A stretch of DNA of 27,917 nucleotides from a virus. A model generated the notes under the pieces. The model saw only the letters and a list, made by a program, of their open reading frames with translations. It made no database searches and was not told the DNA's origin. Position numbers and translations under genes: made by a program. Of the stretch, positions 2,309 through 21,359 are shown piece after piece (position 1 is the first letter of the stretch; the number at the start of each line of letters is the position of its first letter). Location of the stretch: positions 1-27,917 of IMG/VR virus record IMGVR_UViG_3300050821_000915. One strand, 5' to 3'.

Positions 2309-2717
2309 TCCTGGCATTTACGTCTCTCCAGAGAAGTACTGGCAGAACATTCCGCCCCCTCCCGTCATGGATACGGTAGAGGATGTTGCGAAAGCCATAG
2401 AAGAAGCCTGTCATAGTTATGTCTATGCCATGAATAATGACGCGACCTATTGGCACATGAAGGAGACTATGACTTCATTGTTGCATATGGCCTACGCTCA
2501 TGGTCACAGATTTGCAGACAGATTTGGTAATCCAATTGAAAACGTTGAAGACGTTGACGTTCAGGTCTACATAGAGGGCCACAATAGCTTCGTTAACTTC
2601 CTGCCAACGCAGGATTATGTGAAGAGACGAATGGAGAAATCGCTTGGAACTTACGAAAGACTTATCAGGGCTATATTCGCCAACCCACAGATGGAACGCT
2701 TCGACCCCTGCATTTGA
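2292..2717 (+). CDS. hypothetical protein, 141 aa
   Basis: Begins with a short Pro-rich segment (NIPPPPVMD near residues 19-27) and continues as a helical protein. No domain is recognised. No Shine-Dalgarno is visible before the ATG at 2292. The 17-nt overlap with the upstream gene suggests coupled translation. Its last 74 nt overlap the start of the peptide deformylase gene in another frame. Function unknown. Confidence 0.65.
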   Translation: MTSLISPGIYVSPEKYWQNIPPPPVMDTVEDVAKAIEEACHSYVYAMNNDATYWHMKETMTSLLHMAYAHGHRFADRFGNPIENVEDVDVQVYIEGHNSFVNFLPTQDYVKRRMEKSLGTYERLIRAIFANPQMERFDPCI

Positions 2718-3153
2718 TATCGTTCCCGTTGCGGAAGAGATGGTCAAGCTAATGCATGACAAGAAGGGATTCGGCCTCGCTGCTAATCAGGTTGGTCTGC
2801 CTTGGTCATTTTTCGCCATGAGAGGCGGACAAGAAAACTTCTTCATGATCAATCCTAGGATTGTGAACGCAGAGGGTGAGATGCTGGAAGACCTTGAGGG
2901 TTGCCTCTCCTATCCTGGCCTCGCTATCAAGCAGGAACGCTTCCTGAGCGTCCGTGTTCGTTTCATGGGACCGAATGGCGAGACCTACACGAAAGTCTTC
3001 ACAGGGCTCTCTGCACGCATCATACAGCATGAGATGGATCACCTTGAGGGTCGTCCTTGGTGGCACGTCTCGAAATTAAAGTTTGACATTGCCAAGAAAA
3101 AGGCGCATACTAGAGGATGGGATTATAAGTCTTTGACTTTCAAAGGGGTCTGA
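2644..3153 (+). CDS. def: peptide deformylase
   Basis: Removes the formyl group from N-terminal formyl-methionine of nascent proteins; acts in the cytoplasm at the ribosome with Fe or Zn. All three family motifs are present: GFGLAANQ at 42-49, EGCLS at 85-89 with the metal-ligand Cys87, and HEMDH at 129-133 with ligands His129 and His133 and catalytic Glu130. The 169-aa length is normal. The start is a TTG at 2644 with GGAG about 8 nt upstream, overlapping the previous gene by 74 nt. Phage deformylases are known in marine T4-like phages. It probably helps process phage proteins made in bulk. Confidence 0.9.
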   Translation: MELTKDLSGLYSPTHRWNASTPAFDIVPVAEEMVKLMHDKKGFGLAANQVGLPWSFFAMRGGQENFFMINPRIVNAEGEMLEDLEGCLSYPGLAIKQERFLSVRVRFMGPNGETYTKVFTGLSARIIQHEMDHLEGRPWWHVSKLKFDIAKKKAHTRGWDYKSLTFKGV

Positions 3154-10521: not shown

Positions 10522-10552
10522 TTGACAGACCCTTTATAGTCTGTTATAAATA
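10522..10552 (+). promoter_or_regulatory. promoter for tRNA-Asn (sigma-70 type plus late octamer)
   Basis: TTGACA at 10522-10527, 17-bp spacer, TATAAA at 10545-10550. The -10 extends to a perfect TATAAATA (10545-10552), the T4 late core. It shares TCTGTTATAAATA with the tmRNA promoter. Confidence 0.75.
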
Positions 10553-14273: not shown

Positions 14274-15290
14274 ATGATAGTAACCAAGACACCAGTACGC
14301 ATTTCATTATTCAGCGGGGGATCAGACCTTCCAGCCTTTTTCCGTAAGGAAGACGGTGCAGCCCTGTCTGTGACCATCGACAAGTATATCTATGTGATGG
14401 TCCATCCGACCTTCAATCCTGGCATTCGCCTGAAGTTTGATCAGGTCGAACACGCCGAAAAGCTTGATGATGTCAAGCATATCATTACACGAGAGGCATT
14501 GAAATATGTCTATGGTCCAAATCTCTACAGTGGTTGGGAAATCGCTTCCATATCTGACGTTAGCTATAATGGCTGCGGTCTTGGTACTAGCTCCGCATTT
14601 ACTGTGGGGCTTCTTAACTCACTTCTCTCAAAGCCTGAATACCATAATTCACAATTGGCTAATGACGCTTGCACAATCGAAATTGTGAACTGCGGTTTTC
14701 CTATAGGAAAGCAAGATCAGTACGCGGCTGCTTTTGGCGGAATGAACCTCTTCAATTTCGAGAAGAGTGGTCGTGTCCGAGTAACCAAAGCTAATGGACA
14801 GTGGACTGATCACTTTCAAGAGAAGCTGATTATGTTTTACACTGGCATTGAGAGAGATGGCAATATCATCCTCAAGGATCAGTCGGCATCAATGAACGAT
14901 CCTATCAAGTTTGCTCATGTTCAGAAGAACCGCGATAGAGCTTTCGAAGCGATGCGTTACATGTTCGATGGCGATTATGACGCGGTTGGTGATTTGTTCA
15001 ATCAGTCCTGGGCTGAGAAGAAGCAGATTTCGAAGGGCATTTCAAATACTGTTCTTGACGACATGTATAACATCGCTATGGTTAATGGTGCCCTTGGGGG
15101 TAAATTACTTGGTGCAGGCGGTGGTGGCTTCTTCCTTTTTTATGTTCCCACTCCTGAAGATAGAATGAGGCTCGTTCACGCTTTCGAAGTATTTAAGACT
15201 CGCTTCGGTCAACTAACTATGGTTAAGGAACTTCCGTTCAAATTTTCATACGAAGGCAGTAAGGTGATATATAATGACCGAGAAACTTAG
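14274..15290 (+). CDS. GHMP-family sugar kinase, heptose kinase-like (HddA type)
   Basis: ATP-dependent sugar kinase. The opening TKTPVRISLFSGGSDLPAFF is characteristic of D-glycero-D-manno-heptose 7-phosphate and related fucose/heptose kinases. NGCGLGTSSAF (100-109) is the GHMP phosphate-binding motif 2, and LGGKLLGAGGGGFFLF near 286-301 is motif 3. Its 338 residues are a full length. No Shine-Dalgarno precedes ATG 14274, and a strong promoter ends 6 nt before it, so the message may be leaderless. With the nucleotidyltransferase at 12524 it could make an activated heptose or similar sugar for the glycosyltransferase at 12936. Confidence 0.9.
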   Translation: MIVTKTPVRISLFSGGSDLPAFFRKEDGAALSVTIDKYIYVMVHPTFNPGIRLKFDQVEHAEKLDDVKHIITREALKYVYGPNLYSGWEIASISDVSYNGCGLGTSSAFTVGLLNSLLSKPEYHNSQLANDACTIEIVNCGFPIGKQDQYAAAFGGMNLFNFEKSGRVRVTKANGQWTDHFQEKLIMFYTGIERDGNIILKDQSASMNDPIKFAHVQKNRDRAFEAMRYMFDGDYDAVGDLFNQSWAEKKQISKGISNTVLDDMYNIAMVNGALGGKLLGAGGGGFFLFYVPTPEDRMRLVHAFEVFKTRFGQLTMVKELPFKFSYEGSKVIYNDRET

Positions 15291-20781: not shown

Positions 20782-21006
20782 ATGAGTTACGTTGAAGATC
20801 GTGAAAGAATGGCTGAAGAAGCTAATTTGATACCAATGGCTGCTGATGATGTTCTGAATGTGGTTTCATTCATTGTCTGGCATGAGCCAAACGACCTTTG
20901 GGGCGGAACTAGATGTTATGAGGCATTTGGGTCTTTCTGCCGTCTCGTTGGAATTAAAGACCCCGCTCGCCTCTATGAAATTGTGCGACCATCAGAAAGT
21001 GCTTGA
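20782..21006 (+). CDS. hypothetical protein, 74 aa
   Basis: Strong AAGGAG about 6 nt before the ATG. A helical small protein with a Trp-rich centre (VSFIVWHEPNDLWGG). The end overlaps the -35 box of the tmRNA promoter by four bases. No domain is recognised. Confidence 0.68.
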   Translation: MSYVEDRERMAEEANLIPMAADDVLNVVSFIVWHEPNDLWGGTRCYEAFGSFCRLVGIKDPARLYEIVRPSESA

Positions 21007-21033
21007 CAGGGCCAGAGGCTTCTGTTATAAATA
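21003..21033 (+). promoter_or_regulatory. tmRNA promoter (sigma-70 type plus late octamer)
   Basis: TTGACA at 21003-21008, 17-bp spacer, TATAAA at 21026-21031, which extends to a perfect TATAAATA (21026-21033). The -10 region TCTGTTATAAATA is identical to that of the tRNA-Asn promoter. The predicted start is near 21038. Confidence 0.8.
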
Positions 21034-21037
21034 TCCC

Positions 21038-21344
21038 CGTAGACGTTGATATAACGTAAATAGCTGGTTTGGACTGGGGGGCGGTACCCCACGAGTCCAC
21101 CTAAGCATATAGAGGTGTTGTACCCCTCGTTAATCTAGAGCTAAGGTGTATGCTTAAGTGGGCTCGAAATAGGATCGACAGGCCACGTGAAGAGGTTGTG
21201 GAGTTTACCGTGCGGAAGCCACGTTAGCGCAACAAACGTTAGATGCAAACGATAATGCACCAATCGAGATGGAGTTCGCACTAGCTGCGTAAGCCTTCTT
21301 AGGAGTTTTGCTGGTTTTCTTGGCAACAGAATAAACCAGCTTTT
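21038..21344 (+). ncRNA. ssrA: circularly permuted (two-piece) tmRNA
   Basis: Rescues stalled ribosomes and tags the product for proteolysis. Gene order is permuted, as in alphaproteobacteria: the 3' acceptor part comes first, then a spacer, then the 5' part with the tag frame. Seen: T-arm stem TGGGG/CCCCA (21075-21091), acceptor strand CGAGTCC (21092-21098), A and CC; then acceptor strand GGGCTCG (21160-21166) followed by AAATAGGATCGACAGG, the tmRNA D-region signature. The acceptor stem has the G3.U70 alanine pair. CAGGCCA (21179-21185) pairs with TGGTTTG (21065-21071) as P2. The tag frame 21245-21292 reads ANDNAPIEMEFALAA then TAA. A small hairpin ACGTT/AACGT opens the transcript. Odd points: T loop GGCGGTA is not canonical, and CCT rather than CCA is encoded. 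Confidence 0.9.
21310..21344 (+). terminator. intrinsic terminator of the tmRNA
   Basis: GCTGGTTT (21310-21317) pairs with AAACCAGC (21333-21340), followed by TTTT and an AT-rich stretch. The same GCTGGTTT occurs at 21063-21070 in the acceptor part, so the 3' strand could pair with either copy. Confidence 0.65.
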
Positions 21345-21359
21345 AATTTTGGAGATGAG

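Follow-up and report, generated by a model that had tools for sequence, protein, structure and literature searches.

The window analysed here, the whole 27,917-base stretch of an IMG/VR virus contig, contains a tmRNA gene located 3' of a deaminase gene and 5' of a DUF5662 gene. The phage behind this contig is T4-like, with a T4-like family B DNA polymerase nearest to those of the Sinorhizobium phages phiN3 and phiM12 (37% identity), a PhoH protein and a weak match to the C-terminus of UvsX, and its hosts are probably alphaproteobacterial. ARAGORN called six tRNA genes in the contig, and a peptide deformylase at 2644–3153 (PF01327, E = 7.1e-32) is a further translation-linked gene besides the tRNAs and the tmRNA.

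Positions 21039–21340 match 2 Rfam covariance models, tmRNA_permuted (RF04321; 111.1 bits against a cut-off of 47, E = 3.6e-21) and alpha_tmRNA (RF01849; 103.2 bits against a cut-off of 50, E = 1.9e-27), and ARAGORN independently called a permuted tmRNA over the same positions with the tag peptide ANDNAPIEMEFALAA. This agreement, far beyond chance, confirms a circularly permuted, two-piece tmRNA of the alphaproteobacterial type. The first-pass annotation had proposed such a phage-encoded gene and named a search with the alphaproteobacterial covariance model as a check on it, and the RF01849 match bears the proposal out. The elements it had listed, namely acceptor strands in permuted order, a G3.U70 pair, a D-region, a P2 pairing across the two pieces and a tag frame, were all found (Table 1). 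One helix in the outer P2 region deviates from the alpha model, and no further RNA family reached its Rfam gathering score near the gene. When the two pieces were cofolded as free RNAs, their energy was about that of shuffled sequences (z about −0.1), a value that ignores tRNA-like constraints and was obtained with a first piece six bases too long. Free cofolding was dropped as a test because the unconstrained fold misses the tRNA-like domain and the first piece was overlong.

Table 1. Features of the permuted tmRNA gene in window coordinates, with GOLLD RNAs of related phages in the coordinates of their own sequences
Feature	Position	Strand	Remarks
Promoter TTGACA-17-TATAAA, sigma-70-type	21003..21031	+	perfect match
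Acceptor piece (3' tRNA-like piece)	21039..21101	+	P2 strands, T-arm, acceptor 3' strand; RF04321 match begins at 21039
Outer P2 helix, 6 bp	GTAGAC 21039-21044 / GTTTAC 21203-21208	+	covariance alignment
P2 helix, 7 bp, joins the two pieces	TGGTTTG 21065-21071 / CAGGCCA 21179-21185	+	
T-arm TGGGG-GGCGGTA-CCCCA	21075..21091	+	covariance alignment
Acceptor 3' strand CGAGTCC + ACC	21092..21101 (CGAGTCC 21092-21098)	+	
Intervening segment, predicted excised, 58 nt	21102..21159	+	end helix TAAGCATATA/TGTATGCTTA
Messenger piece	21160..21340	+	acceptor 5' strand, D-region, P2, PK1-like hairpin, tag frame, 3' hairpin
Acceptor 5' strand GGGCTCG	21160..21166	+	pairs 7/7 with 21092-21098, G3.U70
D-region AAATAGGATCGAC	21167-21179	+	followed by AGG
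PK1-like hairpin CGTG...CACG, first helix between P2 and tag	21209..21223	+	fits RF04321 model
Tag frame ANDNAPIEMEFALAA + TAA, resume codon GCA	21245..21292	+	ARAGORN
3' hairpin GCTGGTTT...AAACCAGC, GGCAACAGAA in loop	21310..21340	+	RF01849 alignment
GOLLD RNA (RF02032)	L002 894-1357, L004 844-1277, L006 737-1204, L007 844-1277		

Promoter, 3' end and conservation of the gene

Two other phage contigs, L128 and L368, carry the tmRNA gene 3' of the same deaminase gene as the window; in L128 it is likewise followed by a DUF5662 gene, and the L368 contig stops about 90 bases past the tmRNA gene. The first-pass annotation had credited the gene with a promoter and a terminator of its own. As a sequence the promoter is real, being a perfect match whose −35 and −10 hexamers are both kept in the 2 relatives, with a diverged spacer between them. 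Transcription is predicted to start at about 21039, 8 bases past the −10 hexamer, where the outer P2 helix begins. Perfect TTGACA-17-TATAAW matches occur 3 times in the window, upstream of the tmRNA, of tRNA-Asn and of an ORF at 14274, and matches with up to 2 mismatches occur 17 times against 6.3 expected. The one before the ORF at 14274 reaches to within 7 bases of the start codon and may be a chance match. The tRNA-Asn match (TTGACA-17-TATAAA at 10522–10550) has TCTGTTATAAA in common with the tmRNA promoter, which suggests that stable RNAs of the phage share a promoter type.

The terminator fares less well. A hairpin (stem 21310–21317/21333–21340, 15-nt loop) followed by a T-rich run at 21341–21349 is present, but that hairpin is already contained in the alpha_tmRNA model and belongs to the mature RNA, and neither L128 (TTAATTATG) nor L368 (TTAACAATG) has the T-tract. 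The case for a dedicated terminator is accordingly weak, and none is established. A terminator scan left the hairpin unflagged, its loop limit of 8 shutting out a 15-nt loop.

The mature pieces themselves are closely conserved. Between the window and L128, the acceptor piece is identical at 63 of 63 positions and the messenger piece at 179 of 181 (242 of 244 mature bases), compared to 75–93% identity in 8 flanking protein genes. The 2 changes in L128 are G21182A, by which a G.U pair in P2 becomes A-U and the pairing improves, and C21186T, just outside P2. L368 is more distant, with 59/63 identical positions in the acceptor piece (94%) and 156/170 aligned positions in the messenger piece, up to CAACAGAA (92%). 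Its T-stem, TCGGG/CCCGA, differs from that of the window by one compensatory pair (G-C to C-G), and its tag, ANDNAPVEFEYALAA, keeps length, frame and ends, with 4 synonymous changes and 3 conservative replacements among the 7 changed codons. The ClpXP-type ALAA ending pointed out in the first-pass annotation is present before the stop in the window and conserved, together with the frame, in L368.

The intervening segment, by comparison, differs in sequence among all 3 genes and is 58 nt long in the window, 121 nt in L128 and 95 nt in L368. Its ends nonetheless pair in all 3 genes to form a helix of 9–13 bp, and the observed helix length was reached in 19, 0 and 47 of 2000 shuffles, respectively. 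This closing helix may hold the tmRNA precursor together. The retention of mature pieces, promoter hexamers and tag frame while the intervening segment turns over is strong evidence for selection on a functional gene. Outside the group formed by the window, L128 and L368, 22 other contigs have a DUF5662 relative, and none of them contained a tmRNA scoring above the cut-off; the gene is thus characteristic of this lineage. A further contig, with a polymerase 86% identical to that of the window (L225), is without the tmRNA; it is 20.7 kb long and probably stops short of the locus.

Covariation in the acceptor stem was assessed over 159 permuted genes from phages and Alphaproteobacteria. The stem consists of standard or G.U pairs only in 158 of the 159 genes, and G3.U70 is present in every one. 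Pairs 1, 2, 3 (the G.U) and 7 do not vary at all, and compensatory covariation is seen at pairs 4, 5 and 6; C4-G69 and U5-A68 of the window sit at these covarying positions. The 3' end is less ordinary. In the window the acceptor piece ends A73-C-C and the next base is T, so that CCA is not encoded, and the same ACC-T is found in L128 and L368. CCA is encoded in 86 of 88 sampled bacterial genes, the terminal A missing in the other 2, as well as in nearly all other phage genes and in all 6 tRNA genes of the window. With the terminal A not encoded, the window tmRNA needs one extra maturation step.

Relatives in phages and Alphaproteobacteria

Two-piece tmRNA is the ribosome-rescue RNA of Alphaproteobacteria and was first described in Caulobacter. 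The window gene shares with alphaproteobacterial ssrA the G3.U70 acceptor, T-arm, D-region, cross-piece P2, ANDN tag start and 3' GGCAACAGAA hairpin. In a sample of 289 alphaproteobacterial genomes, 263 had an RF01849 match above the cut-off; the window scores 103 bits, whereas the best 150-odd bacterial genes among the matches listed score about 240–313. The window gene also differs in its lengths, with 29 bases from tag stop to ACAGAA (bacterial median 55.5, phage-set median 25.5), an intervening segment of 58 (31 and 80) and a tag of 15 residues (12 and 14), a comparison biased by a viral set mostly chosen by exact GAAATAGGATCGAC match and a bacterial set drawn mostly from better-scoring genomes.

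In the first-pass annotation, phages were mentioned as carriers of one-piece tmRNAs only, but two-piece genes are on record in the literature and turned up in our own searches. A 2022 survey (PMC9004378) describes a two-piece tmRNA in the marine phage Melnitz and puts the number of two-piece genes in phage genomes, the majority of them marine or aquatic, at 53, and 79 bacteriophage sequences are included in a 2025 tmRNA database paper (PMC11915505). Six named phages gave permuted tmRNAs above the cut-off here: Ruegeria phages DSS3_MAL1, DSS3P8 and vB_RpoS-V10, Rhodobacter phage RcXuper, Phaeobacter phage MD18 and Sinorhizobium phage Phosso, of which DSS3_MAL1 alone has the tmRNA annotated in its record. 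Many more came from an IMG/VR scan with a single 14-base motif. ARAGORN matches in L308 and L336, with tags ANKIVSFRRTAVAV and ANNIVSFRRTAVAV, look like false positives and were left out. The window tmRNA is thus a fresh example of an already known kind of phage gene and not a discovery.

Melnitz is a T4-like myophage whose tmRNA is, like that of the window, phage-encoded, permuted and of the alphaproteobacterial type, but it is reported to come with a glutamine riboswitch (PMC9004378) where the window has a plain sigma-70-type promoter. The 6 named phages share with the window the permuted gene form and the Rfam families; they differ in genome context and in encoding CCA in place of the ACC-T of the window. 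In Phosso (469 kb), the permuted tmRNA is unannotated and spans about 600 nt (L003 1495–2097), with the tag ANDNVSTKVALAA and an intervening segment of about 400 nt; it was found by Rfam and missed by ARAGORN. In the Ruegeria and Phaeobacter phages, a GOLLD RNA lies less than about 300 bases 5' of the permuted tmRNA (Table 1), with a tRNA-Arg inside it in L002 and L006.

The first-pass annotation had set the middle of the tag apart from the host type. Taken as something special this does not stand, as the 83 non-redundant bacterial tags sampled vary among themselves equally. Tags of the form AP[IM]E[ME] do occur at 7 other phage loci compared to 0 of the 83 bacterial tags, with APMEM in the 5 named phages other than that of Sinorhizobium, and when 84,980 bacterial and archaeal species were scanned for AP[IM]EM, in one spelling of the first two codons, no match came up. 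The sole match of the corresponding viral scan was a chance one inside a protein gene (L163). A phage-specific motif as a discovery was toned down, because EMALAA endings are found in bacteria too and the bacterial scan covered one codon spelling; AP-[IM]-E-x is an oddity that recurs in phage tags. Elsewhere among the viral genes, the tag predicted for the permuted tmRNA at L098 3691–4257 is unusually long, at 29 residues (ANDNASNVFSFVDFSNARKYVNEDFALAA). Permuted tmRNAs of the alphaproteobacterial type whose tags resemble those of phages were also found in MAG bins assigned to Neomarinimicrobiota, Muricauda and Bacteroidetes (L176, L177 and L178), and one of these tags, ANDNYAPEMAMAA, is that of the viral contig L114. 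These 3 are probably phage contigs that were wrongly binned with bacterial genomes.

Probable ribosome rescue with host factors

No SmpB gene was found in the window, a genome fragment, in the 6 complete phages with a permuted tmRNA, or in 8 further viral contigs, 3 of them with an ARAGORN-called permuted tmRNA. Given its absence from the window and the 6 complete phages, host SmpB is most likely used. We consider it highly probable that the phage has here a working copy of the two-piece ssrA of Alphaproteobacteria, engaged in ordinary trans-translation through host factors. Its transcription, processing, charging and tagging, and the benefit to the phage, we infer along the following lines. 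The strong sigma-70-type promoter would give a precursor from about 21039, and pairing within it, in P2, in the acceptor stem and between the ends of the intervening segment, would bring the permuted halves close to one another. Host RNase P and 3'-processing enzymes would cut out the 58-nt segment to leave pieces of about 63 and 181 nt, the 3' end, ACC-T in the gene, being completed by the host CCA-adding enzyme. After charging by host AlaRS via G3.U70, host SmpB and EF-Tu would place the tmRNA on ribosomes stalled at broken mRNA, where ANDNAPIEMEFALAA would be read up to the TAA stop, recycling the ribosome and sending the product to ClpXP-type proteases. During lytic infection, a surge of truncated mRNA may in this way be offset by the phage tmRNA.

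The same molecule could serve other ends. It might act mainly in proteolysis or sabotage, in that tags added to host proteins translated from broken host mRNA would free their amino acids for use by the phage, as put forward for Melnitz (PMC9004378). The kept ALAA ending of the tag agrees with this, but the biochemistry would be that of rescue, sequence does not separate the two, and there is no sign of selectivity for host proteins, making this quite unlikely as the main role. Inhibition of host trans-translation by a tmRNA-like decoy that occupies SmpB has a reported parallel in molecules consisting of the tRNA-like domain only, such as that of mycobacteriophage DS6A (PMC4131195; PMC11915505), and could be read from a conserved tRNA-like domain in a phage without its own SmpB. 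The messenger half and tag frame, needless for a decoy, are intact and conserved here, unlike in DS6A, and we regard this role as very improbable.

An origin by recent capture of a host gene, a functionless decaying remnant, or bacterial DNA misassembled into a phage contig has in its favour that phage ssrA genes ultimately resemble bacterial ones and that mobile elements are known to integrate at ssrA. The gene nevertheless occupies the same place in 3 phage contigs and is conserved above its flanking genes, and its RF01849 score, far from those of the best bacterial genes listed, argues against recent capture; we hold any of these origins to be extremely improbable. At the other end of the scale, phage two-piece tmRNAs might form a class with a function of its own, separated long ago from host ssrA, with longer AP-[IM]-E-x tags, a shortened post-tag region and, in the window lineage, an un-encoded terminal A by which the CCA-adding enzyme would control maturation; tagged products would then go to another adaptor or protease than those carrying the host tag. 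This we consider unlikely.

Ordinary trans-translation with host factors is our preferred reading, and under it the locus offers a clean, conserved case in which lytic phages would bring the ribosome-rescue RNA and rely on host SmpB. The 3 related genes mark the parts under selection, namely the mature pieces, the promoter, the tag ends and the closing helix of the excised segment, and the ACC-T end and the recurring tag motif may represent small, testable differences between phage and host trans-translation.
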